NCBI RefSeq assembly: GCF_001487165.1
Contig: NZ_LN913006.1
Location: forward strand, 2,529,220-2,593,219
Origin: Blautia massiliensis (ex Durand et al. 2017)
GTDB taxonomy: Bacteria > Bacillota > Clostridia > Lachnospirales > Lachnospiraceae
DNA: 64,000 bases
Direction: 5' to 3'
Notes under the pieces: generated by a model
Seen by the model: only the letters and a program-made list of their open reading frames with translations
What the model was told of the DNA's origin: nothing
The model's database searches: none
Program-made: the position numbers and the translations under genes
Shown here: one piece after another, positions 576 to 51,353 of the stretch
Layout of the letters: every line of letters begins with the position of its first letter
Numbering within the stretch: position 1 is the stretch's first letter

Positions 576-695
576 TCACTCCGTATTATTCAATTTCGTC
601 AGTCCAATGCTATAAAGCTCTGCACCCTCTTGATAGCGCACAAATTTCTTTGCTATTTTCTTTGTTTTCTCTACATCTTTACGTGCATATCCCAT
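576..695 (-). pseudogene. DUF6462 excisionase-like fragment
   Basis: A 39-codon frame starts at ATG 695 behind a strong AAGGAGG and ends at TGA 576-578. Its residues RYQEGAELYSIGLTK match the start of the winged-helix part of DUF6462 proteins, two of which occur at 10.7-11.2 kb (compare RYQQAEIIYSISHKK there). The family is usually about 65-75 residues and continues with a second helix and an 'I-Y-K-I/V' strand that is absent here. I read it as a truncated copy that may still be translated. It lies between the TetR gene and the toxin-antitoxin terminator. Confidence 0.6.
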
Positions 696-716
696 ACACG
701 GCACCTCCTTTTTTGC

Positions 717-757
717 ATAAAAAAAGCAGCTAACCTATTTTTCATAGACTAACTGCT
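717..757 (-). terminator. Rho-independent terminator downstream of the toxin gene
   Basis: On the minus strand an imperfect stem beginning AGCAGTTAGTCTAT pairs with ATAGGTTAGCTGCT around a short A-rich loop and runs into a T-tract of at least seven. It lies 25 bp downstream of the toxin stop. The first stem arm shares the 12-mer AGCAGTTAGTCT with the three cassette terminators inside the ICE (16.5, 20.9 and 21.6 kb). Confidence 0.7.
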
Positions 758-781
758 CGTGTTTTTGTTCCATATTCTGTT

Positions 782-1120
782 TTAATTTACTGAAACGTCT
801 TCTGTTTGGCTTAACTGTTTATGAATATCACGTCCACCATACATAATTCGCACTACATATACTATTTCAGTTTCATCATCTGTTTTGTAAAATACCAGAT
901 AATTATCCACCGGAAAGAATCGAAGTCCTCTGCTGTGCCACGGTTCTTCCTCATAGAGCCGATTTCTATTCGGCATAGTATCCAGCTTCCGAATTGCCGT
1001 CATAATCCGCTCTGCCTGTCCTGCAGCATTCTCCGGAGCTAACAGTTCCTCTGAAATATATCTGAAAATGTTTCGCAGATCTTTCTTTGCTCCTGCTGTA
1101 TACATCACTTTATATTTCAT
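782..1120 (-). CDS. RelE/ParE-family toxin
   Basis: A 112-residue protein of the type II toxin fold. The N-terminus (YKVMYTAGAKKDLRNIFRYI) is the typical beta strand followed by the K-D-L-x-x-I helix, and the C-terminal half has the F-P-V-x-N-Y-L-V-F-Y strand and the V-x-R-I-M-Y-G-x-R-D end characteristic of RelE/ParE proteins. It should act on ribosome-bound mRNA (RelE) or gyrase (ParE); sequence alone does not separate these. It overlaps the upstream antitoxin by 4 nt (ATGA), which implies translational coupling, and the pair probably stabilises the surrounding mobile element. Confidence 0.88.
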   Translation of the reverse strand: MKYKVMYTAGAKKDLRNIFRYISEELLAPENAAGQAERIMTAIRKLDTMPNRNRLYEEEPWHSRGLRFFPVDNYLVFYKTDDETEIVYVVRIMYGGRDIHKQLSQTEDVSVN

Positions 1121-1425
1121 ATACCAAATTCCTGTTTCATTTCTGCTTCAACTTCATCTGCTGAATACACTCTGCCAGCCTTAATATCTTCCATGCCTTT
1201 TTCTATTTCTGCATTGAACTGTTCCTTTGTCAGAGAGCCATATGCAACAGGCTCCTCATAAGCTGGAAGTTTCATCTCAAAAGGAATTCCTCTCTGGAGT
1301 ACAATCTGTCTCAGAAACATTCCTACTGCATTGGACATTGGAATTCCAAGTCGATCAAGCACCTGCTCTGCCTGTTCTTTCACTTCAGGCTCAACACGTG
1401 CAAATACATTTGCTGTTCTTGCCAT
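1117..1425 (-). CDS. RelB/DinJ-family antitoxin
   Basis: The chosen start is the ATG at 1425 (MARTANVFARVEPEVKEQAE), which has AGAGGAGG 7 nt upstream; the frame stays open further upstream without another good ribosome site. The N-terminal ribbon-helix-helix (residues ~1-50: T-A-N-V-x-A-R-V then a helix and G-I-P-M-S-N-A-V-G-M-F-L) is the classic DinJ/RelB DNA-binding segment, and the acidic C-terminus would wrap the toxin. It is expected to autorepress its own promoter with the toxin as corepressor. The gene is directly upstream of, and overlaps, the toxin. Confidence 0.9.
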   Translation of the reverse strand: MARTANVFARVEPEVKEQAEQVLDRLGIPMSNAVGMFLRQIVLQRGIPFEMKLPAYEEPVAYGSLTKEQFNAEIEKGMEDIKAGRVYSADEVEAEMKQEFGI

Positions 1426-1518
1426 AGATATCGCCTCCTCTTTTTTCTTCATTATATTTCGTTTGATTGCAAATTGCAAGCAGTTCGCAATCTTTTTTAT
1501 CATTAATACGCTGGCAGG

Positions 1519-1576
1519 TGGCAGACGGCAGAGAGGTTATCTATAAAACTCTGTATTTTTGTAAGCACTCTGCCAC
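1519..1576. repeat. 58-bp structured repeat, copy 1
   Basis: This segment resembles 3522-3579 in the same orientation. Both keep GGCAGAC at the left, TATCTATAAAA near the middle and CTCTGCCAC at the right. Read on the minus strand it forms nested stems: an outer GGCAGA/TCTGCC and an inner CAGAG/CTCTG around TTTTATAGATAAC. It lies downstream of the DUF4365-partner gene and upstream of the antitoxin. Confidence 0.75.
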
Positions 1577-1701
1577 TATCAATCTTTTAGTCTGATACGC
1601 TTTTCTTGTTTTTAATTAATCCGATATTTCGGATACAAAAAGACCACTTCTGTATTTTTACAAAAATGGTCTCTCGTACCCTACTATTTAATTACTTTGC
1701 G

Positions 1702-2859
1702 CTAATCAATAATGGAAAATGACTCTGCCGTCATTAATTTTTTCCTTTTACCATTATCTTCAATTTCCCCAATCACTTCGACATGACTACCCGATTCATG
1801 CGCCTCTATTGCCTTATTATAATCATCTTTAGCCAATTGTACACTTACTGTTTTTTTGCTATCGTTCTCATCTAAATATACTATCGTTACCTTTCCATTT
1901 GTTCTTTTGGAGGCATCCGGTATAGATTCTAGCTTTTTTACTCTTCCAACAATTTTGGTATGAGTATTTATAGTTTCTCTTAATTTTTCTATAGCCATGG
2001 TTATCGGTTGATAATAATCATGTGTTAAAGTAATTCTGTCCTGATCACAACGATTTGTTTTAACAACAGGAGACCATTGTGCAATAAACTCTACTGCCGT
2101 ATCCTGCTCTGAGATATTCATTCCTGTTAGGGCTTCATAAAAATTAGCACTTATCATCGCCCCTTCATCTTCAGAAATCAATTTATCAATTTCCCCATTG
2201 TCTATATTTGCTTTAATATTTGAAACATTTGACATAATTCGTTTTGTCACCTTGCGTGTTAGCGAATTTGCACATTGTTCTTCATCAGAAAAAATACTTA
2301 ATTGTCTATATTCTTCCGATTCATCTAATTCAGCAAAAGGGCATACTACAGAAATAACATAGCTACCAATTTCTGTTTGACCAAATTTGCAATTATTTAT
2401 AAATTGAGAAACCGCTTCTTCTGGTCTTCCTTGATGAATATGCTTCGGATGAAGAACATCTAGAGCCGTTGCTGCTATCAGCTTTTTAGCATTTTCAAAT
2501 AAATTAATCGCATCATCAAAAAATATACTACCAGCTTCAACGTCTTTTTTCTGCAATCTAATTTTCAATATATCTGTATTAGGGTTTAATAAATATAACA
2601 TCAACTGTTCTGTTGATTGTCCTTCTAAAAATGCAATCTGTTCAATTGCATCAAACATTGCTTTTTTATAATCCGCTAATGTTTTATCAATTGGTATTAT
2701 TACCTGATAGAATTCTTCCTTCTCTGTAATTTTTTGAAAGATTTTAATATATTCCTTTTTGGTTTTATATTGCATCCAACCGGTATCTTTAAGGTATCTT
2801 ACTACAGCATGAGGATTTATCTTTTCTGTCAGGTCCATGAAATTAACTGAATAGATCAT
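1702..2859 (-). CDS. Uncharacterised protein paired with a DUF4365 protein
   Basis: I do not recognise the family. The chosen start is ATG 2859, which overlaps the stop of the upstream gene by 4 nt (ATGA) and has GGAGG 7 nt upstream; a GTG at 2865 is the alternative. The 385-residue product has no signal peptide or membrane segment. The N-terminal half is mixed alpha/beta with a helix-rich middle. The last ~90 residues (from HTKIVGRVKKLES to the end) look like a small beta-rich module that could be an OB-like or nucleic-acid-binding domain; that is inference. It is translationally coupled to a nuclease-like gene and lies between two direct repeats, suggesting a two-gene cargo unit, possibly defence. 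Confidence 0.6.
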   Translation of the reverse strand: MIYSVNFMDLTEKINPHAVVRYLKDTGWMQYKTKKEYIKIFQKITEKEEFYQVIIPIDKTLADYKKAMFDAIEQIAFLEGQSTEQLMLYLLNPNTDILKIRLQKKDVEAGSIFFDDAINLFENAKKLIAATALDVLHPKHIHQGRPEEAVSQFINNCKFGQTEIGSYVISVVCPFAELDESEEYRQLSIFSDEEQCANSLTRKVTKRIMSNVSNIKANIDNGEIDKLISEDEGAMISANFYEALTGMNISEQDTAVEFIAQWSPVVKTNRCDQDRITLTHDYYQPITMAIEKLRETINTHTKIVGRVKKLESIPDASKRTNGKVTIVYLDENDSKKTVSVQLAKDDYNKAIEAHESGSHVEVIGEIEDNGKRKKLMTAESFSIID

Positions 2860-3365
2860 GGCCACTCCTCCTTTGCTATTTTTTCAAGTATCTCTAACAA
2901 AGTATCTTTATTAATCAAGTTTTTCTTATTAATAGATACCGTAACCGTGTTTTTGTTATCAGATGGTGACTCATTAGAAAAATCAGCCCAATACATACAT
3001 CCATTAATCAGCAAATCTTTTTCTGACCACTTTACCCAGGTATCTTCGTCCTCAGGCAACACAAGCAATCCCAAAATAATAGGAGTCGTACATCTTGTGC
3101 ATAAATCGTTAAAATTCTTTACTTTTAATTTATAATGAAGTATTTCTTCATCATCTGTATATTGAGATACCGATGATGTGCATTTCAACTGAATTCTTAA
3201 AGAAGACATATATTTCGTTCCATCATCAAGAGTTATTAATTTCTTCATAATGCCGTCTGTACTATCATCATCATGTCTTTGGAGATCAAAAGAAACGCTT
3301 GCACTTGCGCAAACCGCTGAAAGATAACTAATATGGATATCCTCTTTATCATTTGTCGTGAGCAT
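2856..3365 (-). CDS. DUF4365 domain protein (PD-(D/E)XK-like nuclease candidate)
   Basis: The ATG at 3365 is preferred because GGAGGG lies 6 nt upstream; the ATG at 3383 has no ribosome site. The N-terminus (ISYLSAVCASASVSFDLQRHDDDSTDG) matches the DUF4365 pattern of a helix, then an acidic 'D-x-x-D-G' stretch, followed by a strand ending R-I-Q-L-K-C-T-S (residues ~63-70). The D43 and Q65-x-K67 arrangement resembles the D...(E/Q)-x-K core of restriction-endonuclease folds. The protein is 169 residues, typical for the family. Its stop overlaps the next gene's start, so the two are likely made together. Nuclease activity is inferred, not shown. Confidence 0.7.
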   Translation of the reverse strand: MLTTNDKEDIHISYLSAVCASASVSFDLQRHDDDSTDGIMKKLITLDDGTKYMSSLRIQLKCTSSVSQYTDDEEILHYKLKVKNFNDLCTRCTTPIILGLLVLPEDEDTWVKWSEKDLLINGCMYWADFSNESPSDNKNTVTVSINKKNLINKDTLLEILEKIAKEEWP

Positions 3366-3521
3366 TTTTATCCCTCCGTTCATTTATTATTGATGAAATT
3401 ATACCACACTTCTGAACAGATGGAACACATAATATCTATTTTGTCAGGTATTAATTCTCCTCTATACCTTACAGATTCCTTCTTCAACTTATCTCTGTGT
3501 ACTTTGAAATATTTATACACC

Positions 3522-3579
3522 GGCAGACAACAGATAAGGTATCTATAAAAATCTGTATTTACTTCAATGACTCTGCCAC
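3522..3579. repeat. 58-bp structured repeat, copy 2
   Basis: Same orientation as 1519-1576, with the two-gene DUF4365 unit between the copies. On the minus strand the outer stem GGCAGA/TCTGCC is kept. The inner stem is ACAGAT/ATCTGT, where copy 1 has CAGAG/CTCTG: both sides changed together, so base pairing is preserved. The repeat begins immediately downstream of the replication-protein gene. Confidence 0.75.
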
Positions 3580-3582
3580 CCA

Positions 3583-5469
3583 TCATTCTTTTAATTGAAT
3601 ACTATTCTCCTGCTTTTCATTTACTTGGTACTCCAACTCATTCTTCATCCGGCTTCTCACATCACGCATTGTTCGCCCGGATATTCCCTGTTCCTTTGCT
3701 TTTTCATCTAATTCCCTGATTGAAATTTCTTTTTTATCAGCAAGAAGTTCCCTGATTAACTTTGCCCCTCTCTCCAGCTTTGTTTCTGTTGCTTTTCCTT
3801 CTTTTCCATCTAACAATTCATCTGCGGAAATCTCATAGGCTCCCACCCATCGGAAACCTTCTTCGTCTCCCAGTTTAAATGCCATTGTCTCCCCTGGTGG
3901 CGCAAGAGAACTTTTTTCATGTATCAATACCCTTGTGGTTGGATCTTTTCTTACTTTCCCGATGAAAATCAAGCTTCGCACTGCTGCCATAATATCAATA
4001 GAACCAAGTCCTCGATACGTGCTCTGTGTTCCGGAAGATTTATTCAGATGTCCAATCAGCACAATGGCACATCCGGTCTTCTCTGCAATCATTCCCAGTT
4101 TTCGGAACACCGGACGCACTTCATTTGCACGGTTTATATCCACATCTGCTCCAATAAAGGCCTGTACCGGATCAATGATTACAAGCCTCACATGATTCTG
4201 CCTGACTGCCTTTTCAATTCGATCATCGGATAAAGTCAACGCTTCTTCCGAATCATCAATCACCATAACCCTGCTTAGATTAGCACCTGCTTCTACCAAT
4301 CTTGGCTTAATGGTATCGCCCATGCCATCCTCCGCAGTCTGATAGATTACATTGAATGGTTCGATATCTTCCATATTCGGAAACAATTTTCTGTTGGTAC
4401 AGGCTGCCGTCAGCATCATAGCAAAATAAGTTTTTCCTTCTCCCGGATTTCCCTGAATGATTGTCAGTTTTCCAAATGGAATATAAGGAAACCACAGCCA
4501 TTCCACACTGGTCTGTTCAATGTCTTCATAACACAACATCGGCACTAATTCTTCCTTTTCCGGTACTTTAATTGTGATTGTTTCTGCAATTGCTTTCTTT
4601 CTGTCGGCGTTTTTATCACAGAGAATTTCGTTCCAGTCTTTTCGTGATGGTTTCAGACGAATTACACTGTACCCCTCCGGAATTTCTTCTGCCAGTTTCT
4701 TACAAGCCTCATTCCCTGCCTGGTCATTATCCAGGCACAGGAAAACAGAAGTAATCTGAGGGCGTTCAGAAAGAAAAGTCATCAGTGCCACACTGGAGAC
4801 TCCACCCAGACTCAGGTAACTGCGCTTTTTCCAATCTTTTGGAAATAACTGGATAAATGAAAGCAAATCAATAGCTGCTTCAAATACAAACAACTGATTA
4901 TCCGTTCCTCTGTAACTGAATCCATAAGATTTACCAGAACCTGTTACATCTCCTCGATATTTTATTTCACCAGTTCCCCGGCAGTGTGCATATCTCGGAA
5001 TACCATCTGCATCTCTGCCGACAAATATAACATTATGATGTTTCTTTTCTTCGTAAATATCACCTCTGTCAATCCAATCTTCCACCAGTGTTTTCTCAAT
5101 CTCTCTTTTTTCTGTCAGATACTTCATGATTTTTTCATTATCCTCATTTTTCTCCGGTAATCGGAAGTCTTTAGACGGGGCGGGGCAGGACTTCTGCCTG
5201 CCTTCGCCTTCTTCCCCAATCAGAATTTTCACTGCTTCCGGGAATGTTGCATAATAAAATTCCATCACAAAGTCTACCGGATAACCGCCCTTACTCTGAC
5301 TATGCCGATACCATCGATTTCCGGATATCGTTACACTGTCATGCTTTTTCCAACGGTATTCTCTGCCACTTTTCATCAACTGTTCCCCTTGTTCGTTCAG
5401 AAAAGACACAAGATCGGTCTGGTTTGCTCTTGCAACCTCCACATAAAATATACATCGATTAAAAAACAT
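3583..5469 (-). CDS. Toprim (DUF3991-type)/AAA RepA-like replication protein
   Basis: The N-terminal ~90 residues (NQTDLVSFLNEQG ... RWYRHSQSKGGYPVDFVMEFY) form the zinc-less CHC2/DUF3991-type module of mobile-element primases. A Toprim-like segment follows (FVFEAAIDLLSF, then VFLCLDNDQAGNEAC). An AAA_25/RepA-type ATPase then carries Walker A GNPGEGKT, Walker B LVIIDPVQAF and the sensor IVLIGHLNK. The end looks like a winged helix. The protein probably initiates or primes element replication. The ATG at 5469 (AGGGAAAA just upstream, 7 nt after the previous stop) is preferred over 5493, which would overlap the upstream gene. It is the main replication gene of region A. Confidence 0.85.
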   Translation of the reverse strand: MFFNRCIFYVEVARANQTDLVSFLNEQGEQLMKSGREYRWKKHDSVTISGNRWYRHSQSKGGYPVDFVMEFYYATFPEAVKILIGEEGEGRQKSCPAPSKDFRLPEKNEDNEKIMKYLTEKREIEKTLVEDWIDRGDIYEEKKHHNVIFVGRDADGIPRYAHCRGTGEIKYRGDVTGSGKSYGFSYRGTDNQLFVFEAAIDLLSFIQLFPKDWKKRSYLSLGGVSSVALMTFLSERPQITSVFLCLDNDQAGNEACKKLAEEIPEGYSVIRLKPSRKDWNEILCDKNADRKKAIAETITIKVPEKEELVPMLCYEDIEQTSVEWLWFPYIPFGKLTIIQGNPGEGKTYFAMMLTAACTNRKLFPNMEDIEPFNVIYQTAEDGMGDTIKPRLVEAGANLSRVMVIDDSEEALTLSDDRIEKAVRQNHVRLVIIDPVQAFIGADVDINRANEVRPVFRKLGMIAEKTGCAIVLIGHLNKSSGTQSTYRGLGSIDIMAAVRSLIFIGKVRKDPTTRVLIHEKSSLAPPGETMAFKLGDEEGFRWVGAYEISADELLDGKEGKATETKLERGAKLIRELLADKKEISIRELDEKAKEQGISGRTMRDVRSRMKNELEYQVNEKQENSIQLKE

Positions 5470-5476
5470 TTTTTCC

Positions 5477-6373
5477 CTATGCATAAATAGCAATTGGGAT
5501 CACAATAGCAGCCGGTCCTTCTATTTTCGTCTTTAATTCCGGCAAATTAAATTGTTTCATATCCTCCGTTTTAAATTCTGCAAACATTTCATTTAATAAG
5601 TCTTCCTGCAAAATCGACAACGATGTTTTTCTGAGTAAATCAATGTTTTCTGTATCCTCTTTGCATATGAATATTACTTTTCCAAGAACTTTAAAATGCC
5701 CACCAATGATTTCTGATATATTATCATTCGCAAGATATTGTTCTTGGACTGACAAGACAGTCGTTCCTTTGTTATCTGATAATATAAAATCTATTGTTCC
5801 ACTATGTTTTAATTCATCCGCAAATAATTTAATTTGCTTTACCATTTCATCATCTTTTTTCTTTTGATTTTTTGCCTGTGTTTTACCCCCTACTTGAGGT
5901 TGTTCTGCGAAAATATTTGCCATACGAAATAAATCAATGAAACTATCCATATAATTTATTATCGGATTCTTTTGTAATTCTCCTTCAACTTCGATAAAAT
6001 CACCTACTTGCATTTTTAAAAAATCCAAATCAGATTTTAATATCTTTTGTTGTACTAAAAATCCTCGAAACTTTGATAAAAGAGAAACATTTGTATGTAT
6101 CTTTTCTTTAACAATACTTTCATTTTCGCCTTTATTTCCTTCATGGCTTATTCCACCAGAAACATCAATTTTTAATAACTTACTTAAGATACTGGCAGAT
6201 GTTGAAATTCCCGCATCAATTTTCTGTGAAGAACTATTTTCTTTATGCTCTGTATAATTAATTTGACTTACCATTGAAAATCCATCTTCCATAATAGCAA
6301 GCATATCCAAAACAATTTTTTCATTTATATATATCGGAATAATAAGTCTATCTGATTTTATATTATGTTCCAC
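5477..6373 (-). CDS. DUF6414 family protein
   Basis: A 298-residue soluble protein begun by GTG 6373 with GGAAGGG 8 nt upstream. The opening 'LIIPIYINEKIVLDMLAIMEDGFSMV' (here noted as LIIPIYINE, VLDMLAIMEDGFSMV) is the conserved N-terminal signature of DUF6414 proteins: a strand, then an acidic D-G-F-S motif. The middle is Lys/Gln-rich (KTQAKNQKKKDD) and the last third is mixed alpha/beta. No catalytic motif or membrane segment is visible and no function is known. It sits between the restriction-modification gene and the replication protein, 7 nt before the latter, so the two are likely cotranscribed. Confidence 0.65.
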   Translation of the reverse strand: MEHNIKSDRLIIPIYINEKIVLDMLAIMEDGFSMVSQINYTEHKENSSSQKIDAGISTSASILSKLLKIDVSGGISHEGNKGENESIVKEKIHTNVSLLSKFRGFLVQQKILKSDLDFLKMQVGDFIEVEGELQKNPIINYMDSFIDLFRMANIFAEQPQVGGKTQAKNQKKKDDEMVKQIKLFADELKHSGTIDFILSDNKGTTVLSVQEQYLANDNISEIIGGHFKVLGKVIFICKEDTENIDLLRKTSLSILQEDLLNEMFAEFKTEDMKQFNLPELKTKIEGPAAIVIPIAIYA

Positions 6374-6601: not shown

Positions 6602-9397
6602 TTATCTTTTTTCAAGGTCTTCTACTTTCTTCTGATAAAGTTTCATCAGTCCCACAACACAGGCAGCTTCGCTTTTATAGGCTTCACTGCCTTTTGTGAA
6701 TCCGTATGCCTGCATGACTGCCATATCATTCTGGTGATGTGCTTTTCGCAGTTCCGGCGGCATGGTCAGTTCATCATAAAGATCTGCAAGGCTGCTATCC
6801 GGATATAATGCTCTGGCATCAAGGACTGCCTGTGCAGTCTGTTCGATTTTTTGCCGTTGCTGAGCGGTCGGTTCTGGCCATGGGAAATTATTGTAAACGA
6901 TTTTTATCGAATAATCATAATCGCTTTTTAGTCTCCCACAAACAACCCGCATCCATGCCATGTGTACATTTGATTCTAAGATTCCAAATTCATATAAGTC
7001 AGCATCTGGCATCAATCGAACCTTATTACTACATAAAACCGAGCTATCCATATATCCCATCGGAACATATCTCCTTCTCTGAGATGAGACTTCAGGAATT
7101 ACTATATACTGTCCTTTTGGCATATTCTCCACATGGAATCTTGTTGGCTTTTCAGCCAATTTAACCGTACCTTTGCTCGGACTTGATAATCGATATTCTC
7201 TAACTGCTTTAATCCGTTCCATACACAAAGGAAGTTTTCTTAATTCAGTCGGGCTGCATTCTCCCAACCAAAGACAATATCTTGGCGATCTGTTTATAAA
7301 TTCTCTCGAGCCATACCATTGGTGAAAGTATTTTTGAGCTTCCGGTTCTTGTTTTATAAACTCTTCCATTTCTTTTTTTTCAAAAAGATAATATCCACCA
7401 TCAATTGGCTTATTTCCAATTCCGATTTCTGGAATATTGCAGATAGGCTTATTTCTGCTCTCGACATATACATTCGCTGCATCCAAAAGATAACCATTGA
7501 TGTTTTTTGCAATTTGATATCGTTCATCTATGAATATTTTCTTTGGTTTATTATAAGGAGCAATACTAAATCCAATGATCACACAATGCACATGGGCCTT
7601 TATCTTTGCTTCACTATCCCACTGAAATGTTCGATATGCAAAATCAATATGTACGTCATTTTCCAATAGTGGTTTCCACAAATTAGCAACACTTTCTCCT
7701 TGGGAAACAGAATTTGTCGAAACCAATGCAGCTCGTATTGATGTATTCTTCATAAAATCTGCACATTTCTTATACCAGCAGCAAACGTAATCCATATTTC
7801 CGACATTTTTCCATCCCTTAAAAATTTCTCTTACATCATCTTTCTGTTCAGAACTCATTACTCTGGCACCAACAAACGGAGGATTTCCCATAATATATGA
7901 CACCTGATATTTCGGTACAACGCTCTCCCAGTTAATCTGCAAAGAATTACCTTCTACAATAAACGCATTTGTCGTCAACGGCAGAAAATCCAAATTCATA
8001 TGAACGATATCTTCTGTCTCTTTCATCATCTGGGATTCTGCAATCCACAATGCCGTCTTGGCAACTGTAACAGCAAAATCATTAATCTCAATTCCATAAA
8101 ACTGATCAATAGAAACATGAATCGGGGAAGATTCATCAAAGCCAAAAGTAATCTGTCCTCTCTGCAATTCTTTTATGACTTCGTTCTCCAATCGCCGTAT
8201 ACTGATATATGTTTCCGTAAGGAAATTTCCACTTCCCGATGCCGGATCAAGCCACCGGAGATTTGCCAGCTTCATCTGGAAGTCTCTCAGCTTTTTATCT
8301 TTTGTTCTCTGCACGGTTATCTGCTGAATTTCTTTCAGCTCATTTTTCAGATCGTCCAGAAACAGTGGATCAATGACCTTGTGAATATTCTCAATGCTGG
8401 TGTAATGCATACCGCCGGAGCGTCTTGTCTCTGGATTCAACGTACTCTCGAACACAGCACCAAATATGGTCGGACTGATTTCTGACCAGTCAAAATCTGC
8501 TGATGCTTTTTCTAATAAAAGATTTCTGATTTCATCCGTAAAAGGCGGAATCTCAATATCTTCATTTGCAAAAAGTCCACCATTTACATACGGAAAAGCT
8601 GCAAGCTGTGGGTTATCATCTTTCAAATAAGGATCTCTATCCTCCGGCTTTGTATCAAGGATCTGGAAAAGTTCAATCATTGCTTTTCTCATTTTTCTTG
8701 CATCAAATTCTTCCAGATAATCATGGAACATACCATGCTGTCCGAAAATGCCGGCATCCTCTGCATACAGGCAGAATACCATTCTGACACAAAGGATATT
8801 CAGACTTTTCATTGCACGCTCTGTTGTTGGATCGGCATATTGTTTTGCCAGTGCATCATACAGCAACCCTACAATTTCACCTGCGGCAATGGAAACTTCC
8901 ATTTCTCTCTGAAGATTTGTGTTTCCCTCGTCCACAAGGAACTGTAACCGATAATATTCTTTTTCCAGATTCTCCAACTGGATAATCTCCGGATCACCGC
9001 CCGGCTTTTCCATGTCATAAATATAGAATGACTGGAAATTACTGGTAACAATCCATCTCGGTCTTTTTGAATACGGCAATTCAGAAGAATATCTTTTTGC
9101 CTGTTCAAATGGTGTCAGCATAGATCCATCGGACTGTCGGATAGCAGCTGTCAGGCTCTTGTTGATACTTTTCTGTTCAATCATGACATGGGTTTTCTCG
9201 ATATACCCATCAATAAAACTGGTATGGTCAAGGTGTACCTGATCTTCAAAAGAAATAAACTGTGATATTTCCGTCACACCAAATACCGTTGTGAGAAGCT
9301 CCACCCAGAAAATCTGGCTGTCGCCTTTTTCATATCCACGGTCTTTCCAGTTTTTCGCAAATGCTTTCGCAGCTACTCTTTGTTGTGTATCTGTCAT
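6602..9397 (-). CDS. MmeI-like type IIL restriction-modification enzyme
   Basis: A single 931-residue polypeptide combines nuclease, adenine methyltransferase and target recognition. The N-terminal nuclease shows D63-x10-E74-Q-K76 (FIDGYIEKTHVMIEQK), a PD-(D/E)XK core. A helical connector follows at ~150-370. The gamma-class N6-adenine methyltransferase has the SAM motif DPASGSGN at 384-391 and the catalytic motif GNPPF at 504-508. The region ~620-850 is the probable target recognition domain, and a helical tail with repeated aromatic and proline residues ends the protein. MmeI-family enzymes methylate one strand of an asymmetric site and cut about 20 nt away. Length and motifs look intact, so it is probably active. 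A small HTH gene lies 15 nt upstream and may regulate it. Confidence 0.85.
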   Translation of the reverse strand: MTDTQQRVAAKAFAKNWKDRGYEKGDSQIFWVELLTTVFGVTEISQFISFEDQVHLDHTSFIDGYIEKTHVMIEQKSINKSLTAAIRQSDGSMLTPFEQAKRYSSELPYSKRPRWIVTSNFQSFYIYDMEKPGGDPEIIQLENLEKEYYRLQFLVDEGNTNLQREMEVSIAAGEIVGLLYDALAKQYADPTTERAMKSLNILCVRMVFCLYAEDAGIFGQHGMFHDYLEEFDARKMRKAMIELFQILDTKPEDRDPYLKDDNPQLAAFPYVNGGLFANEDIEIPPFTDEIRNLLLEKASADFDWSEISPTIFGAVFESTLNPETRRSGGMHYTSIENIHKVIDPLFLDDLKNELKEIQQITVQRTKDKKLRDFQMKLANLRWLDPASGSGNFLTETYISIRRLENEVIKELQRGQITFGFDESSPIHVSIDQFYGIEINDFAVTVAKTALWIAESQMMKETEDIVHMNLDFLPLTTNAFIVEGNSLQINWESVVPKYQVSYIMGNPPFVGARVMSSEQKDDVREIFKGWKNVGNMDYVCCWYKKCADFMKNTSIRAALVSTNSVSQGESVANLWKPLLENDVHIDFAYRTFQWDSEAKIKAHVHCVIIGFSIAPYNKPKKIFIDERYQIAKNINGYLLDAANVYVESRNKPICNIPEIGIGNKPIDGGYYLFEKKEMEEFIKQEPEAQKYFHQWYGSREFINRSPRYCLWLGECSPTELRKLPLCMERIKAVREYRLSSPSKGTVKLAEKPTRFHVENMPKGQYIVIPEVSSQRRRYVPMGYMDSSVLCSNKVRLMPDADLYEFGILESNVHMAWMRVVCGRLKSDYDYSIKIVYNNFPWPEPTAQQRQKIEQTAQAVLDARALYPDSSLADLYDELTMPPELRKAHHQNDMAVMQAYGFTKGSEAYKSEAACVVGLMKLYQKKVEDLEKR

Positions 9398-11476: not shown

Positions 11477-11504
11477 GGAACGCCTAACATGACGTTCCTT
11501 TTCT
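11477..11504 (+). promoter_or_regulatory. Stem-loop upstream of the surface-protein gene
   Basis: GGAACG pairs with CGTTCC around CCTAACATGA and is followed by TTTTCTATTT. The same layout, with a different stem, occurs at 22937-22960. It could be an attenuator or terminator in the leader of the adhesin gene. The stretch 11221-11566 holds no other gene: it contains the region A leader, the ICE end and the arm repeats. Confidence 0.5.
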
Positions 11505-11566
11505 ATTTCCAGCCATTCTTATTGGACGGCTATTTTATTACTCAAAACGAAAGGAGCATTAGACTT

Positions 11567-14500
11567 ATGAAAAAGATATTAAAGCGATTGTGTACGGGCT
11601 TCTTAGCTCTTGCAACTGTCGTTACTGCTTTACCGAGTACACCCGTTCATGCAGAAAGTAAGCAATACTGGACGGAAAGTGCAGAGCGTGTCGGTATCAT
11701 TGAAAAAGTAATGAATGACGGTTCTATCGGTTCTACATTCAATGAGGGCATGATGAAAGTTGAGGGCGAAACTGCCTATTGTATTGACATCAATACAGAT
11801 TTCAAAAATGGTTACAAGACCAGAGCTGACGCAAGCTCACGCATGAGTGCCGACCAGATTTCAGATGTGGCGTTATCCTTAGAGTATGTCAAACAGTATG
11901 GCGAAGCTCACAAGGAACTGAATTACAAGCAAGTCTATCTGTTGGAACAATGTGTTGTCTGGCAGAGATTGAGCGTACATCTTGGCTGGCAATGTGATAA
12001 CGTGCGAGCTTCTTATGATGAAATACCAAAGGCAACACAGGACGAAGTTTTCTCTGGTGCAAAAGCCTTTGTCAAAGAGAATAAAGGACGCTATGAATGT
12101 GGCGGTTATATCTACTCTGGCGAGGGGCAGGAATTAGGACAATTCTGGGCGAAACTGAATGTCGGAAATGCGAAACTACAAAAGACTTCCAGTAATACCA
12201 GCATTACAAACGGTAACGGGAATTACTCTGTCGCTGGTGCAATCTACGGTGTCTTTTCTGATAAGGACTGCACGAAACAGCTTGCCACCCTTACGACTGA
12301 TGAAAACGGAAATACAGATGTTGTAGAGGTAAAAGCAGGCACAGTCTATATCAAGGAATTATCCGCACCAGCAGGATATAAAGTAGATAAAACTGTATAT
12401 TCCTTAAAGATTGAAGCTGGAAAGACAGCGACATTGAACGTATCTGATACGCCAAAAGTAACGGACACTTTGATTGAGCTTTTCAAGATTGACATGGAAA
12501 CACAGAAAGACAATCCGCAAGGAAACGCTTCTCTAGCAGGTGCGGAATTTACATGGAAGTATTATGCAGGCTTCTATACTAAAGACAATCTCCCTGCCGA
12601 AGCTACTCGTACATGGGTTACAAAGACAATCGCTGAAACAGACAGCGACGGGACAACCCACTACATCACAAAATTAGCGGACGCATACAAGGTGTCTGGC
12701 GACAGCTTCTATATGCAAGACGGTAAAGCCGTTTTTCCACTTGGAACACTAACCGTTGAAGAAACGAAAGCTCCAAATGGCTACTTACTTGACGGTGCAT
12801 ATATGCAGGCTGGCGATAAGTCCGAACAGATTAAGGGCTTATATGTAACACAGATTACCGAGGACGGCGACCTTGCCGTATTATCTGGAAGTAACCAGTT
12901 TTCCGTTTCTGACAAGGTTATCCGTGGCGGTGTCAAAATTCAGAAACGAGATTTAGAAACGGGCGATACAAAGCCACAAGGAAGTGCCACTTTGAAAGAT
13001 ACTGCCTTTGACATCATTTCCTTAAATGATAATGCAGTATTGGTTGAGGGCAAGCTATACAAAAAAAATGAAGTGGTAAAGACAATTCGTACCGATATTG
13101 AGGGTGTCGCTTCTACTTCTTCTGACCTCTTACCTTATGGAAAGTTTCGTATCGTTGAAAGTGAAGCTCCAAACGGATATTTGACTGACGGTGCAAAACC
13201 GATTGATTTTACAATCACAGAAAATGGAAAAATTGTGGACTTAACCGACAAAGCCCATTCTATCTACAATCAGATTAAGCGTGGGGATATTGAGGGCGTG
13301 AAAATCGGTGCAGGCACACACAAGCGTCTTGCTGATGTTCCCTTTAGGATCACAAGCAAGACGACGGGCGAAAATCATGTTGTGGTAACTGATGATAACG
13401 GGCAATTCTCCACTTCTGCTGAATGGGCTTCTCATAAGCACAATACCAACGCAGGCAAGACCAGCGAGGACGGTATATGGTTTGGGACTTCTGAACCAGA
13501 CGACAGCAAGGGTGCATTACCTTATGATACTTACATCATTGAAGAAATGAAATGCGACAGCAACAAAGGTTTTAAACTTATCCCACCTTTTGAAATCGTG
13601 GTATCAAGAAATAACCTTGTGATTGATTTAGGGACTTTGACTGATGAATACGAAAAAGAAATCTCTATCCATACCACAGCGACCAGCAAGGACGGCGAAA
13701 AGACTATCCTTGCAGGAAAAGAGGTAACAATCGTTGATACTGTCAAATTAGACGGACTTACAAAAGGCACAAAATACCAGCTCAAAGGCTGGCAGATGTT
13801 AAAAGAAGAAAACACCGAGCTTATCATTGACGGGAAACGTGTAGAAAACGATTATACCTTTGTCGCTGATGATGAAGCTATGAAAGTGGAAATTTCCTAT
13901 ACATTTAATGCGTCTGCTTTAGGTGGCAAAAACCTTGTTACCTTTGAGAAATTGTATGATTTAAGCAATCCAGACGAACCCGTGAAAGTTGCAGAACACA
14001 AAGACATTGCGGACGACGGGCAAACGGTACTTATCACAGAGCGTATCATCAAAATTCATACGACTGCTACTGATAAGGACGGCAACAAAGAGCTTGAAGC
14101 TGGAAAAGACGTTACAATCATTGATACAGTAACCTTAGAGGGCTTAGAAGTCGGTACACAGTACAAACTTGTGGGCTGGCAGATGTTGAAAGAAGAAAAT
14201 ACAGAGCTTCTTATCAATGGAAAGCGTGTGGAAAGTGATTATACGTTTACTGCTGACAGCGAAACTATGAAAGTAGAAGTTGCCTTTACGTTTGACGCTA
14301 CTTCTCTTGACGGCAAACAGCTGGTAACTTTTGAAGAATTATACGATTTAAGCAATCCAGACGAGCCGAAGAAAGTTACCGAGCATAAAGACATTGAGGA
14401 CGAGGGACAGACGATTACCTTTAAGGAAAAACCAGAAGTCCCAGAAGAACCAGAGAAACCCGAAATACCGCAGACACCAGATACACCACATAAAACAAAC

Positions 14501-14617
14501 AGTCCAAAAACTGGCGATAGTACTAACCTTTACGGACTGCTTGCACTTCTTATGACTTCTGGTGCTGGGCTGGCAGGTATTTTCTTCTATAAACGCCGTA
14601 AAATGAAGAAATCATAA
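11567..14617 (+). CDS. Sortase-anchored thioester/VaFE-repeat surface protein
   Basis: The ATG at 11567 follows AAAGGAG and opens a signal peptide (KKILKRLC, hydrophobic GFLALATVVTAL, cut near VHA-ES). Residues ~45-190 form a thioester (TQXA) domain with C72 in AYCID and Q128 in LLEQCVVW as the likely Cys-Gln pair. Several SpaA/Cna-B-like domains follow, each with the K-A-P-x-G-Y type ending (SAPAGYKV, KAPNGYLL, EAPNGYLT). Two VaFE-type repeats follow (KLYDLSNPDEP and ELYDLSNPDEP), then a Pro/Glu stalk, the sortase motif SPKTGD, a hydrophobic helix and KRRKMKKS. The 1016-residue protein would be covalently attached to peptidoglycan and could hold cells together during conjugation or bind host surfaces; neither is proven. 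Confidence 0.88.
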   Translation: MKKILKRLCTGFLALATVVTALPSTPVHAESKQYWTESAERVGIIEKVMNDGSIGSTFNEGMMKVEGETAYCIDINTDFKNGYKTRADASSRMSADQISDVALSLEYVKQYGEAHKELNYKQVYLLEQCVVWQRLSVHLGWQCDNVRASYDEIPKATQDEVFSGAKAFVKENKGRYECGGYIYSGEGQELGQFWAKLNVGNAKLQKTSSNTSITNGNGNYSVAGAIYGVFSDKDCTKQLATLTTDENGNTDVVEVKAGTVYIKELSAPAGYKVDKTVYSLKIEAGKTATLNVSDTPKVTDTLIELFKIDMETQKDNPQGNASLAGAEFTWKYYAGFYTKDNLPAEATRTWVTKTIAETDSDGTTHYITKLADAYKVSGDSFYMQDGKAVFPLGTLTVEETKAPNGYLLDGAYMQAGDKSEQIKGLYVTQITEDGDLAVLSGSNQFSVSDKVIRGGVKIQKRDLETGDTKPQGSATLKDTAFDIISLNDNAVLVEGKLYKKNEVVKTIRTDIEGVASTSSDLLPYGKFRIVESEAPNGYLTDGAKPIDFTITENGKIVDLTDKAHSIYNQIKRGDIEGVKIGAGTHKRLADVPFRITSKTTGENHVVVTDDNGQFSTSAEWASHKHNTNAGKTSEDGIWFGTSEPDDSKGALPYDTYIIEEMKCDSNKGFKLIPPFEIVVSRNNLVIDLGTLTDEYEKEISIHTTATSKDGEKTILAGKEVTIVDTVKLDGLTKGTKYQLKGWQMLKEENTELIIDGKRVENDYTFVADDEAMKVEISYTFNASALGGKNLVTFEKLYDLSNPDEPVKVAEHKDIADDGQTVLITERIIKIHTTATDKDGNKELEAGKDVTIIDTVTLEGLEVGTQYKLVGWQMLKEENTELLINGKRVESDYTFTADSETMKVEVAFTFDATSLDGKQLVTFEELYDLSNPDEPKKVTEHKDIEDEGQTITFKEKPEVPEEPEKPEIPQTPDTPHKTNSPKTGDSTNLYGLLALLMTSGAGLAGIFFYKRRKMKKS

Positions 14618-42633: not shown

Positions 42634-43824
42634 ATGTCTAATGTAAAACGAAAAGACAGTAAAAATCGCAATTTGCGTAATGGAGAGAGCCAGCGAAAAG
42701 ACGGAAGATACGTTTATAAATATACCGATATATACGGAAAGCCACAATTTATCTATTCTTGGAAACTTGTACCGACAGACAAGACACCTGCTGGAAAGCG
42801 TGATGATATTTCATTGAGGGAAAAAGAAGCACAGATAAAAAAAGACCTTAACGACGGTATCGACACAGTCGGCGGTAAAATGACAGTCTGCCAGCTCTAC
42901 GACAAGAAAAACAGCCAAAGAAAGAACATCAAAAGGGCTACTGAAAAGGGACGACAGTATCTTATGAATGCTCTGAAAAATGACCCATTGGGTATGAGGG
43001 CGATTGATACTGTTAAGCAGTCGGACGCTAAAGAATGGGCTATCAGAATGAGCGAAAAAGGATATGCCTATAAAACGATTGATAACTATAAGCGTTCCTT
43101 GAAAGCTTCATTTTACATGGCGATACAAGACGACTGTATCAGAAAGAACCCATTTGAATTTAAGCTAAGTGATGTTCTGGAAGATGATACAGAGCAGAAA
43201 GTTATCCTTACACCAGAGCAGGAAGAACGCCTGCTTGCCTTTATGGAAAAGGACAAGATTTATAGTAAGTATTATGATGAGGTTGTGCTTCTGCTGGAAA
43301 CGGGACTTCGTATTTCTGAATTTTGCGGACTGACGACGCATATTGATATGCAGAACAGAATACTCAATATAGACCACCAGTTATTGAAAGACAGCGAAAT
43401 GGGCTACTATATTGAAACACCAAAGACCAAAAACGGAAAACGGGAACTTCCATTGACAGAACGGGCTTATCAAGCAATCCAAAGAATACTAAAGAACAGA
43501 GGAAAAGCACAACCGCTGATTGTAGGTGGTTACAGCAATTTCCTATTCTTAAACCGTGAGGGCTTGCCTAAAGTTGCAGGAAACTATGAGGGCATGGTGC
43601 GAGGATTGATTAAGAAGTATAACAAATATCACACGGACAAGTTACCGAACATCACACCACATTCATTCAGACATACTTATTGTACGAATATGGCAAACAG
43701 AGGAATGAACCCTAACACTCTGCAATATCTCATGGGACACGCTAACATAACCATGACACTTGGTTATTACGCACACGGGACATTTCAATCTGCAAAAGCG
43801 GAGCTGGAAAGGCTGGCTTGTTAA
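42634..43824 (+). CDS. int: Tyrosine integrase (Tn916 Int type)
   Basis: 396 residues. The N-terminal ~75 residues (NGESQRKDGRYVYKY, GKPQFIYSWKLV) are the three-stranded AP2-like arm-binding domain that contacts the 11-bp DR2 repeats. A SAM-like core-binding domain follows at ~95-185. The catalytic domain has Arg in LLETGLRISEFCGL, the H-x-x-R box HSFRHTYCT, the third His in LMGHANITMT and the nucleophile Tyr in LGYYAHG. All are present, so the enzyme should be active. It is the last gene before the right end. Confidence 0.95.
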   Translation: MSNVKRKDSKNRNLRNGESQRKDGRYVYKYTDIYGKPQFIYSWKLVPTDKTPAGKRDDISLREKEAQIKKDLNDGIDTVGGKMTVCQLYDKKNSQRKNIKRATEKGRQYLMNALKNDPLGMRAIDTVKQSDAKEWAIRMSEKGYAYKTIDNYKRSLKASFYMAIQDDCIRKNPFEFKLSDVLEDDTEQKVILTPEQEERLLAFMEKDKIYSKYYDEVVLLLETGLRISEFCGLTTHIDMQNRILNIDHQLLKDSEMGYYIETPKTKNGKRELPLTERAYQAIQRILKNRGKAQPLIVGGYSNFLFLNREGLPKVAGNYEGMVRGLIKKYNKYHTDKLPNITPHSFRHTYCTNMANRGMNPNTLQYLMGHANITMTLGYYAHGTFQSAKAELERLAC

Positions 43825-44183: not shown

Positions 44184-44224
44184 TGTGGTCTGACATCATG
44201 GTTTTAGAGATTTTATATTTAATT

Positions 44225-44327
44225 TTAGTACAGCTTAGCACATGCCGGAATATGGTTATCAACCATCAGAAGATGAAGCTTTTCTTCGCCTTCTTCTTCA
44301 TGAATAGCACTGAGGAGCATGCCGCAA
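44225..44327 (-). pseudogene. Displaced 3' end of lysS
   Basis: 103 bases reading [20 protein letters not shown], then VDNHIPACAKLY and a stop, align with the last codons of the intact lysS (49314-49416) with 10 mismatches (~90% identity). The fragment keeps the stop codon and same orientation, as expected for an attachment-site duplication formed when an element integrated at the lysS 3' end. The intact gene has [12 protein letters not shown]. Confidence 0.85.
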
Positions 44328-44799
44328 AAGCTATGGATTATATCAATCTGCTCCACGCATCCGGAATGTATGAAAAGCAGACTGCTAAGATAATTCCATT
44401 CCGTAGCATTGATATTTTTGAAAATGCCGCATCAGCCGGAACCGGTAACTTCCTTGTAGACGGACAGAAAGAGACTGTACGCATAGATGAATCTATCCTG
44501 CCGGAAGATACTACTTTCGGTGTCCGTATTAGTGGTGACAGTATGGAACCTGAATTCCATGGTGGTCAGATTGCATGGGTATTACAACAGGAATCTGTTG
44601 CTAATGGAGAAATCGGCATCTTCGCTCTTAACGGAGAACCTATATTAAGAAATTACAAAACGATAAAGACGGAATTTTCCTTATCTCTCTTAATGAAAAG
44701 TATGCACCTATCAAGGTTAGTGAAAATGACCGCTTAGACATATTTGGAAAAGTTCTTGGAAAATCTGATGCTTCTGCTATTACAGGACATTGCCGATAA
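44328..44799 (+). pseudogene. S24 (LexA/CI-like) repressor, truncated and frameshifted
   Basis: From the lysS-fragment edge the frame reads KAMDYINLLHASGMYEKQTA, IIPFRSIDIFENAASAGTGN, then FGVRISGDSMEPEFHGGQIAWV: the S24 self-cleaving domain with the catalytic Ser in GDSMEP. The N-terminal HTH is missing, replaced by the lysS end. Near 44641 one base is lost: the expected continuation KKLQNDKDGIFLISLNEKYAP is present in another frame and runs to TAA 44797-44799. Both defects make it a pseudogene of an XRE-S24 phage/ICE-type repressor. Confidence 0.8.
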
Positions 44800-47398: not shown

Positions 47399-48421
47399 TT
47401 ATACTTTGAAGTAGCTATCCAATCCTTTGAACTCTTCCGCTTTCATTTCTTTTGTAACATCAGCATAGATGTTCAGTGTAGTTGAAATATCTGAATGTCC
47501 GAGTGCGTCTTGAATGACCTTTATATTTACTCCAGCTTCACACATTCTTGTTGTAAATGTATGTCTAAGCGAGTGGCAGCTAAAATGAGGAAGTAACACA
47601 TCAGGTTCATCACTGTGCAAAAACTGCTCATCATTGCAATCACGGATAATTCTTCGGATTGCTTTGTTGAGTGTGGCTTGGTGCTGTGCCTGACCAAAAC
47701 GATTGATGAAAATAAAATCTGTATATCCGTCAATCGTGAACTCGCAATGAAGTCCTAAATATTCCTGCTTCTGTTTCTCATGTTCAAATGCTTCTTTCAC
47801 AAAACCGAGCATTGGAACCTGCCTCATACTCGCCGGAGTCTTCGCTGTATTTACATTGAAATAACAGCCACTTTTACTTCCCTCGGTTCTGTGGTCATAA
47901 TATACAAGAGTATGATTAACATCAATCATTCCACTTTCCATATCAATATCACACCATCTCAATCCAGTTACTTCCCCCACACGAAGTCCAGTTCCTATCA
48001 TTACTGCAAAGACCGGATACCAGTGTTCATATACAGGGTGGGTTTTCAGGAAATTCAGAAATAGCTCCTGCTCCGGTTTCGTCAACGCTCTACGCTTTTC
48101 CGACTGAAAACAATGTGCTTTTTTCAATTCTCTCAACACATTATCTGACGGGTTATTTCTGATAAAGTCATCATCGACAGCAATCTGTAAAACCTGATGA
48201 AGAACCGTATGTATATTATCAATCGTTGAAGGCTTCAAATTTCTTTCATCAACAAGATAATTGTAGTATTTCTTAATATCCGATTTCTTCAGCGTTGATA
48301 TTCTTTTACTTCCAATCACTGGTCGCACAAAAGTATTGTACATATATTTGTAATTTTCAAAGGTATTATTCTTCAGCCCTCTTTTCATATTTGCCCAAGC
48401 GGTAAGTTTTTCTCCGACCAC
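47399..48421 (-). CDS. Tyrosine recombinase lacking the arm-binding domain
   Basis: 340 residues from GTG 48421; ATG 48388 (MKRGLKNNTFENYKYMYN) is an alternative that overlaps an upstream stop by ATGA. A SAM-like core-binding domain spans ~15-105. The catalytic domain keeps Arg in MIGTGLRVGEVTGLRW, the box HSLRHTFTT, His in LGHSDISTT and nucleophile Tyr in LNIYADV. The N-terminal ~60-residue AP2-like domain that such integrases use to bind arm sites is absent and replaced by a DUF4379 scrap in another frame. Probably the remnant integrase of the lysS-targeting element; catalytically plausible but likely defective in site recognition. Confidence 0.85.
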   Translation of the reverse strand: MVGEKLTAWANMKRGLKNNTFENYKYMYNTFVRPVIGSKRISTLKKSDIKKYYNYLVDERNLKPSTIDNIHTVLHQVLQIAVDDDFIRNNPSDNVLRELKKAHCFQSEKRRALTKPEQELFLNFLKTHPVYEHWYPVFAVMIGTGLRVGEVTGLRWCDIDMESGMIDVNHTLVYYDHRTEGSKSGCYFNVNTAKTPASMRQVPMLGFVKEAFEHEKQKQEYLGLHCEFTIDGYTDFIFINRFGQAQHQATLNKAIRRIIRDCNDEQFLHSDEPDVLLPHFSCHSLRHTFTTRMCEAGVNIKVIQDALGHSDISTTLNIYADVTKEMKAEEFKGLDSYFKV

Positions 48422-48465: not shown

Positions 48466-48542
48466 AGCCAAACCTCAACCTCCTTGTGCTTAGAGTATAT
48501 GAAGTTTTAGCTTTGTCTTGTAGTTTGCGAATATCCGTATAA

Positions 48543-48588
48543 ATAGAAAAAGCCCTTTGAGAAAAGGATTTCTCCTCTCTCAAAGGGC
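48543..48588 (-). terminator. Terminator after the VOC gene
   Basis: An 11-bp perfect stem GCCCTTTGAGA/TCTCAAAGGGC (48552-48562 and 48578-48588) runs into TTTTTCTATTT on the minus strand. Confidence 0.85.
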
Positions 48589-48636
48589 AACCTGACAAAC
48601 TGAAAGTTGCCGCTTTCCTGTACTTACCATTTTTCA

Positions 48637-49240: not shown

Positions 49241-49313
49241 GCTGTTTTTTTAGTTTTTTATCAAATGAAGTACGTCCCGTCTATTCGGTAAAACGGTACA
49301 TCTTTACATCATC

Positions 49314-51353
49314 TTAATAGAGCTTTGCACCTGCTGGAATATGGTCATCAACCATCAGAAGATGGAGCTTTTCTTCGCCTTCTTCTTCGTGGATAGCACT
49401 GAGGAGCATACCGCAAGAGTCAATGCCCATCATAGCTCTCGGTGGAAGATTTGTGATAGCGATAAGCGTCTTTCCAACCAGTTCTTCAGGCTCATAAAAG
49501 CTATGAATACCACTTAAAATGGTTCTGTCTGTGCCTGTTCCGTCATCAAGAGTGAACTGTAACAGTTTCTTTGACTTCGGTACTGCAACACACTCTTTAA
49601 CTTTTACTGCACGGAAATCTGACTTGCTGAATGTGTCAAAATCAACTGCTTCCTCAAACAAAGGCTCAATCTTTACCTTAGAAAAATCAATCTTTTCAGG
49701 CTCAGCTTTCACTTCTGCAGCTGCCGGAGCTGCTTCGGAAGTCTTGGAAGCTTTCTTATCAGCGTCCAGGGACTTCATTGTCGGGAACAGAAGTACGTCA
49801 CGAATTGCCTGGCTGTCTGTCAGGAGCATAACGAGACGGTCGATTCCGTATCCGATACCACCTGTTGGCGGCATACCGATCTCCAGTGCATTCAGGAAGT
49901 CTTCATCTGTGTGGTTGGCTTCCTCATCACCTGCGTCTGCAAGAGCATCCTGTGCTTTGAAACGCTCTCTCTGATCGATCGGGTCGTTGAGCTCGGAATA
50001 TGCGTTACACATTTCCCATGTATTGATAAAGAGCTCGAAACGCTCTACCTTGTTCGGATCGGAAGGTTTCTTCTTGGTCAGCGGAGAGATCTCGATCGGA
50101 TGATCCATGATAAATGTCGGCTGGATCAGCTCTTTCTCACAGTACTCCTCGAAGAAGAGGTTGATGATATCACCCTTCTTATGGCGATCCTCATACTCGA
50201 TATGATGCTCGTCAGCAAGCTTCTTGGCTGCCTCATCATCTGCTACTTCGTCAAAGTCGATTCCTGCATATTTCTTGATGGCATCGTTCATGGTCAGACG
50301 TGCGAAAGGCTTTCCAAGATCGATCTCGATACCATTGTAGGAAATCTTTGTGGAACCGCAGACCTTCTCTGCAAGGTAACGGAACATGGACTCTGTCAGC
50401 TCCATCATTCCCTCATAATCAGTATATGCCTGATAAAGCTCCATCAGAGTGAACTCCGGATTGTGACGGGTATCAACACCCTCGTTACGGAATACACGGC
50501 CGATCTCGTAAACTCTCTCAAGTCCGCCTACGATCAGTCTCTTAAGATAAAGCTCCAGGGAAATACGAAGCTTAACGTCTTCGTTCAGTGCGTTGTAATG
50601 TGTCTCAAATGGTCTTGCAGCTGCACCGCCTGCGTTGGAAACCAGCATTGGTGTCTCAACTTCCATGAAGTCACGTCCTGCAAGGAAGTTACGGATCTCC
50701 TTAAGGATCTGGGAACGTTTGATGAATACATTCTTGCTGTCCTGGTTCATGATAAGATCCACATATCTCTGACGATAACGGGTATCTGTATCTGTCAGTC
50801 CGTGGAATTTCTCAGGAAGGATCTGTAAGCTCTTGGAAAGAAGAGTCATCTTCTCTGCATGAATGGAGATCTCACCTGTTCTTGTTCTGAAAGCAAATCC
50901 CTCCAGACCAAAAATATCACCGATATCAGATTTCTTGAAATCTGCATAGGAATCGGTTCCAATGGCATCTCTTGCCACATAAACCTGAATGTTACCCTGT
51001 AAATCCTGGATATTGCAGAAAGAAGCTTTTCCCATTACACGCTTGAACATCATACGTCCTGCGATCGATACATGGATCGGGCTTGCGTCCATGATGCTTC
51101 TTCTTTCTTCATAATCCTTCTTCTGAGCCTCTTTTGTCTGCTCTTCATCAAGACCTGTTACATCAAGCTCCTTGCGATCTTTGAGAAGCTCTGCCTCATG
51201 TGCTTCATAGAGATTCTTTACCTCAAGGGAATGATGTGTCTGATCAAATTTTGTGATCTGAAACGGGTCCCTGCCATTTGCCTGAAGGTCTGCCAGTTTG
51301 TCACGACGTACCTTAAGCAGCTGGTTTACATCCTGCTTCTTCTGCTCTGCCAC
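49314..51353 (-). CDS. lysS: Lysyl-tRNA synthetase with C-terminal tRNA-binding (EMAP/Trbp111-like) domain
   Basis: 679 residues. An anticodon-binding OB fold lies at ~60-180 ([19 protein letters not shown]). The class II catalytic core has motif 1 ([10 protein letters not shown]), motif 2 ([16 protein letters not shown]) and motif 3 ([13 protein letters not shown]). An Ala/Lys linker (~530-555) joins an extra domain ending [40 protein letters not shown] and [17 protein letters not shown], the PF01588 tRNA-binding fold more familiar from MetRS. Bacterial LysRS is usually ~490-500 residues, so the extension is notable. The 3' end is the element attachment site. Upstream greA is 64 nt away and likely cotranscribed. 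Confidence 0.95.

Follow-up and report, generated by a model that had tools for sequence, protein, structure and literature searches.

Parts of the published account of SPARDA describe its DREN domain, "also called DUF4365", as a PD-(D/E)XK fold with the catalytic residues D41, Q60 and K62, and report that activity of the SPARDA DREN alone was not detectable and that tetramerisation on the filament of its partner activates it (PMC12205087). A mutant of another DUF4365-APAZ protein, Q62A/K64A, is given as inactive in an excerpt of a second study (PMC10810196). DUF6575, a further domain that bears on the present locus, is listed in a third report as part of a defence system validated in E. coli, one of 21 that a functional selection uncovered there (PMC9519451), and the candidate systems named PDC are said to derive from a guilt-by-embedding approach, most of them being without experimental validation (PMC12988326).

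Here we compare with these systems a two-gene locus in a stretch of 64,000 nucleotides from Blautia massiliensis, hereafter the window, in which a DUF4365 gene (A) overlaps a long partner gene (B).

The gene pair and its predicted nuclease

Gene A (2856–3383, minus strand; ORF, Pfam and PADLOC evidence) encodes a predicted stand-alone DREN-type nuclease of 175 residues, and gene B (1702–2859, minus strand; ORF, PADLOC and AlphaFold2 evidence) a partner of 385 residues counted from its ATG. The window sequence bears out that the two genes overlap by ATGA at stop and start (2856–2859, minus strand), as the sequence-only reading had noticed. The partner ORF opens 6 bases earlier at a GTG (1702–2865, minus strand, 387 residues); we prefer the ATG at 2859–2857, which gives 385 residues and the overlap, because it agrees with the homologues, in which M3 is nearly invariant (12 sequences). 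The order on the minus strand is primase-helicase, DUF4365 gene, partner, RelB-RelE/ParE, so that the pair lies between a replication-type Toprim/AAA primase-helicase gene (3583–5493, minus strand; assigned by profile match, with a conserved 3' site in close relatives) and, at the opposite end of the slot, a RelB plus RelE/ParE toxin-antitoxin pair (782–1503, minus strand; profile matches). The proposal that restriction-modification as well as toxin-antitoxin genes lie nearby was likewise correct, as an MmeI-type IIG enzyme is recognized by profile match at 6602–9397. This restriction-methylation enzyme adjoins a DUF6414 gene at 5477–6373.

Protein A matches the PADLOC profile PDC-M02A (PDLC04297) at E 3.8e-49 with 164.7 bits, and protein B matches PDC-M02B (PDLC04321) at E 1.5e-200 with 664.1 bits over profile positions 1–383 of 383. 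The earlier description of the pair as undescribed must therefore be withdrawn, since PADLOC-DB 2.0 already lists the two as components A and B of candidate PDC-M02. The matches are nearly full length and the genes adjacent on the same strand (an arrangement that we assume the system to have, seen here in the ATGA overlap), and no difference from PDC-M02 was found. The pair belongs to a listed candidate system that is, as far as we found, uncharacterised: our literature search returned no paper naming PDC-M02, no experiment on the A-B pair and, among the matches listed, no paper with both DREN and OB-fold. No NCBIfam model reached its cut-off for A or B, and in PHROGs both fall into families without assigned function.

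Residues 18–168 of A are covered by Pfam DUF4365 (PF14280; E 1e-17, 65 bits against a cut-off of 24.3). The D...Q-x-K pattern attributed to this gene is present, and D43, Q65 and K67 are invariant in 88/88 full-length homologues, fragments being left out; a lack of conservation at these positions, which the sequence-only reading had named as adverse to its proposal, was thus not seen. These residues match the catalytic D41, Q60 and K62 of the SPARDA DREN and constitute a candidate catalytic triad; A is thus a predicted nuclease with a PD-(D/E)XK-type motif. The first PDB profile match of A is a DREN-APAZ protein, with the GxD and QxK motifs in register, at an E value of 0.86 that is no better than that of glycerol kinases (0.90). 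The likeness to SPARDA consists of the DREN/DUF4365 domain, the D...QxK triad and this weak profile match. The differences are that A is a separate 175-residue protein lacking APAZ, whereas the DREN-APAZ protein of NbaSPARDA has 442 residues, and that B combines a domain without close match and an OB fold, with no Piwi match, where SPARDA has a short Argonaute.

The PD-(D/E)XK-type motif, together with a type IIG restriction-modification enzyme two genes past the primase-helicase, could also be accommodated by an unusual restriction system that reads a DNA mark, in which B would be the specificity subunit and A would cut. We consider such a system very unlikely, because the pair has no methylase and its flanking genes vary between plasmids, as seen in the 9 annotated regions among 12 fetched.

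Predicted fold of the partner protein

The AlphaFold2 model of full-length B, built with 16 sequences (pLDDT 82.8, pTM 0.69), predicts an OB fold in the C-terminal quarter, at about residues 300–387. Compared by VIA, the OB fold reaches Z scores of 10.6 to SilF, 10.0 to SSB and 9.3 to PriB, and SSB, PriB and RPA entries make up most of the 50 VIA matches listed for B (Z 8.3–10.6 over 70–95 residues). A Foldseek search with the full model found nothing at E 0.001 or better, the best match being PriB at 1.3e-3; the Pfam OB match of B lies under its cut-off (17.5 vs 27 bits), and no Pfam family matches B above cut-off. The likeness to SSB and PriB resides in the predicted fold of residues about 300–387; B differs in that this fold is a quarter of a 385-residue protein, the N-terminal domain of which matches nothing closely in the PDB. 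Based on the model, the OB fold may bind single-stranded DNA, a predicted function; OB folds are common, which calls for caution in reading B as a sensor.

The N-terminal domain (about residues 1–298), modelled alone with 83 sequences, gave a pLDDT of 91.0 and a pTM of 0.86, and W30, D98, T164, G167 and S168 are invariant in it. Against the PDB, its best Foldseek match was a type III-B Cas10/Cmr2 at E 0.092 (prob 0.13) and its best VIA match had a Z score of 5.3, lower than what the tool describes as common; the absence of a close PDB match for the modelled domain does not establish a new fold. With respect to an Argonaute-like nature of B, no Piwi family appeared among the sequence matches at E up to 0.1.

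In BFVD, Foldseek matched the N-terminal domain to a 381-residue protein of phage LE1 (E 1e-14), which is presumably the LE1 partner, as 381 residues is the length of LE1 gp37. A second BFVD match (E 1e-4, prob 1.00), to a phage protein with DUF6575, is a partial structural similarity, with a TMq of 0.38 only. Over the 83 N-terminal domains 45 Pfam families matched, and DUF6575 is absent from the 25 that are listed; DUF6575 (PF20215) was counted in 0/291 genomes and 0/14 controls, a count that by the tool's own statement cannot show absence. We therefore treat the modelled likeness to DUF6575 as a lead, not as membership.

Co-occurrence, spread and a proposed role

B was searched for in 397 genomes of the same family (5 match, including that of the window and one other that is broken), in 72,556 plasmid records (14 match, 12 fetched), in viral contigs (16 loci from 20 candidate stretches) and in one genome per species (111 candidate stretches, of which 96 were confirmed as loci and 80 retained). 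The window itself, L023 (the same place as L020), L127 (the same as L027) and the broken pieces L021 and L022 were left out of the co-occurrence count, and near-identical loci, e.g. L018/L019, L039/L040 and L095/L108, stay in it. The resulting 110 loci comprise 102 in which A and B are paired, 4 cut by a contig end (L078, L083, L084 and L093, starting within 200 bp of the end) and 4 without recognisable A (L030, L060 with a 19-residue remnant, L069 and L130). With pairing defined as A upstream of B on its strand, no more than 300 nt away (four loci have gaps of 123–189 nt), A precedes B in 102/106 testable loci. The rare co-occurrence that the sequence-only reading had named as evidence against its proposal was thus not seen. 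One of the paired loci, L090, was set to paired by hand, its extended B ORF having hidden A from the script. The gap between the two ORFs is −4 in 52/101 other loci and −10 in 15/101. Moreover, the distances among A and among B proteins correlate with r 0.898 over 69 shared loci, a value reached in 0/2000 permutations, and the two proteins co-diverge. Cumulatively, the pair is a genuine, widespread and well-conserved unit.

In 12 of the 102 paired loci, A was scored as partial or split before a long partner ORF (L039, L055, L063, L079, L080, L092 and others). Some are genuine splits; in L102 the gene runs off the contig, and L089 has a full copy in addition; decay, assembly error, contig ends and ORF-picking may each contribute and are not separable in all cases. 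In genome G281 (L021, L022), the partner gene is broken in pieces and accompanied by a short remnant of the nuclease gene.

The B loci fall into phyla that we assign from record titles as Bacillota, Pseudomonadota, Bacteroidota, Verrucomicrobiota, Myxococcota, Planctomycetota, Chloroflexota, Nitrospirota, Gemmatimonadota, Synergistota, Spirochaetota, Actinomycetota and Deinococcota, a list that we take to be a minimum; many of the records are metagenome bins. Among 50,697 phage records, B had no match at 1e-5; A matched 4 phage records at 1e-3, two of LE1 and two of M. abscessus prophages. The gp38-gp37 genes of temperate phage LE1, found through A, match both PDC-M02 profiles.

These carriers bear on a possible role of the pair as a DNA-processing helper of its element, in which an SSB-like protein and a PD-(D/E)XK nuclease would serve replication, recombination or sister exclusion together with the primase-helicase. 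The modelled SSB/PriB-like OB fold of B would suit such a task, as would the position of the pair next to the primase-helicase gene and its 3' site. We nevertheless judge it quite improbable, since the pair is carried not only by the integrative element in this window but also by phage LE1, Streptomyces plasmids and proteobacterial contigs, since no other B locus scanned (L018–L131, mostly 3–13 kb) encodes this primase-helicase, and since relatives with the primase-helicase or its tail have the site without the pair.

Considering the pairing, the co-divergence, the conserved triad, the predicted OB fold, the mobile carriage and the variable slot described below, which form the observed basis, we hypothesize, and think it reasonably probable, that the pair is a two-component immune module of the PDC-M02 class, probably anti-phage, composed of a nuclease effector and a nucleic-acid-sensing partner. 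A would be a stand-alone DREN-type nuclease that is inactive or weak alone, and B its sensor and activator, the C-terminal OB fold binding nucleic acid, likeliest single-stranded DNA arising from phage or plasmid replication, and the N-terminal domain holding or assembling A. Upon recognition, B would cluster A, which would then degrade nucleic acid so that either the invader or the cell is stopped. We infer the formation of the complex, its trigger, its substrate and the outcome. The role in defence is suggested by the PADLOC listing, the carriage on mobile elements, the parallel with DREN and the lead from DUF6575. Our comparison of the gene neighbourhood with a control showed no enrichment of defence genes and adds no support: 42 PADLOC families matched among 145 neighbour ORFs and 45 among 145 control ORFs, where families and not proteins were counted, PADLOC was run at 1e-15 with long ORFs cut at 600 residues, and the samples were 145/577 neighbour ORFs (80 loci) and 145/194 control ORFs (20 arbitrary regions from a single bacterial family). 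Among the matches listed, the neighbour families include PglX, BrxL, BrxB and methylases, and the control families Cas9, SoFic, reverse transcriptases and mad3 in 8.

The pair becomes testable in this form, with the effector and its candidate catalytic residues named and the partner divided into an OB fold and an N-terminal domain. If it is active, the DREN nuclease of Argonaute immunity would be shown to operate in many phyla with a very different kind of sensor as well.

The repeats and the variable slot

The pair is flanked by two copies of one sequence. Repeat r2 (3522–3593, minus strand; core 3531–3550) starts within the final ~11 nt of the primase-helicase gene and continues into a conserved site, and r1 (1520–1589, minus strand; core 1529–1548) is a second, diverged copy of the same site. 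When the genome was searched with window positions 3510–3600, 1520–1589 was the one other significant place (79% over 72 nt, E 3.8e-9); the 14 further matches in the 3.7-Mb genome were all shorter than 30 nt with E of at least 0.29, and r1 and r2 are its only two good copies. The 20-mer pattern of the core matches twice vs 0.06 expected, the pattern being derived from those two copies. The earlier claim of two direct repeats around the pair is confirmed.

In one respect that claim needs correcting: rather than a neutral boundary, the repeat represents a site that is conserved 3' of the primase-helicase gene in close relatives. The core TTTTATAGATACC with GGCA/TGCC-type arms lies just 3' of this gene in relatives of 53% to 97% identity and was seen in the related integrative elements L162, L163, L165–L172, L179, L153 and L235, as well as in a circular 8.5-kb record that is typed mobilizable and has a serine recombinase. 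Other primase-helicase relatives, of 55–57% identity, have a different arm pair there and the core is absent. We can only guess that the site serves replication or priming. Its arms are self-complementary by eye, and a hairpin reading rests on this inspection, as RNAalifold gave 0 pairs and no consensus RNA structure on the site alignment.

Several other interpretations of the repeats were rejected or found no support. No Rfam family reached its gathering score, which gives no backing to a known RNA, and with two good copies the repeats are not genome-wide elements; a fresh target-site duplication is opposed by their being 79% alike and by each resembling the resident site on a different side. 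Their reading as borders carried by the pair itself is not supported, since no significant copy was found in L018–L131 (best E 0.079) or in L180 and L181, two longer stretches that surround other pairs. Since the pair elsewhere is not bracketed by the site, the repeats belong to the element family, not to the pair. A second genome with two nearby site copies was found in none of the 397, searched with a strict pattern that matches in 19.

Five related sites are without the pair. In L162, a single site copy lies between a primase-helicase of 97% and a RelBE of 96% identity, and L210, L211, L247 and L248 have only the 3' tail of the gene, the site, and RelB and RelE, complete or partial. In L246, where the outer flank (window 592–790) is conserved at 93%, a two-gene unit follows the site in place of RelBE, and in L163, L165, L249 and L250 the next long gene after the site is a large serine recombinase, identified by Pfam in L163 and L165. 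The unit in L246 (4555–5184) encodes 82 and 122 residues with no Pfam match at 0.01. The slot is thus not always filled by the same DNA, a further observation that had been named as adverse to the proposal. Of the exchangeable unit proposed earlier, the variability of the slot is retained, with five pair-free sites and one holding a different gene pair; the idea that the repeats delimit a travelling unit is weakened, because no other B locus searched has a significant copy. In L210 (8457–8695), a site from the same genus, the primase-helicase tail is joined to a homologue of window 48497–48608, so that the 45 kb lying between in the window are absent there.

The left side of r2 agrees with four of the five empty sites at 54–56/61 positions and with L247 at 47/61, and its right side at 26–34 of 66–68; the corresponding values for r1 are 42–44/61 on the left and 48–62 of 66–68 on the right. 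Over the core plus right arm, r1 agrees at 34–41/43 and r2 at 30–33/43. As r2 is like the resident site on the left and r1 on the right, the pair sits between two hybrid junctions, and the crossover falls within the shared core or close to it. The arrangement may have arisen by insertion at the site or, in the relatives, by a deletion through recombination of r1 with r2; both fit the one filled site seen. A bolder proposal would have an Argonaute-free and guide-free DREN immune system move, within this element family, as a recombinase-less cassette through the 3' site of the primase-helicase gene. B, with its unmatched N-terminal fold and SSB-like tail, would sense foreign single-stranded DNA and switch on the detached DREN nuclease, and movement through the conserved site would leave two hybrid sites, the repeats. 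Taken as a whole, this proposal is unlikely.

The slot also touches on whether the pair stabilises its element by addiction, A being a nuclease toxin and B its antitoxin or immunity protein. Overlapping genes that are often on mobile elements would agree with this, as would the RelBE pair that adjoins here and the different small two-gene unit that replaces RelBE in L246. A usual antitoxin is much smaller than a two-domain protein of about 380 residues, which B is, many copies of the pair lie on contigs of 100–900 kb, and no Pfam or NCBIfam toxin-antitoxin model matches A or B; addiction is, in our view, rather unlikely. For the two-component immune module that we favour, the related elements with an empty slot are natural controls, and the bracketing site offers a clue to how cargo varies among such elements.

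Elsewhere in the window, a 109-nt stretch at the 3' end of the lysyl-tRNA synthetase gene is duplicated (44222–44330 and 49311–49419, 89%), with a tyrosine recombinase (47399–48421) between the two copies. The arrangement resembles that of an element integrated in lysS, beside a Tn916-type integrase (42634–43824). A 1042-residue protein encoded at 11489–14617 contains SpaA and T-Q ester domains and has a 300-nt internal repeat (73%).
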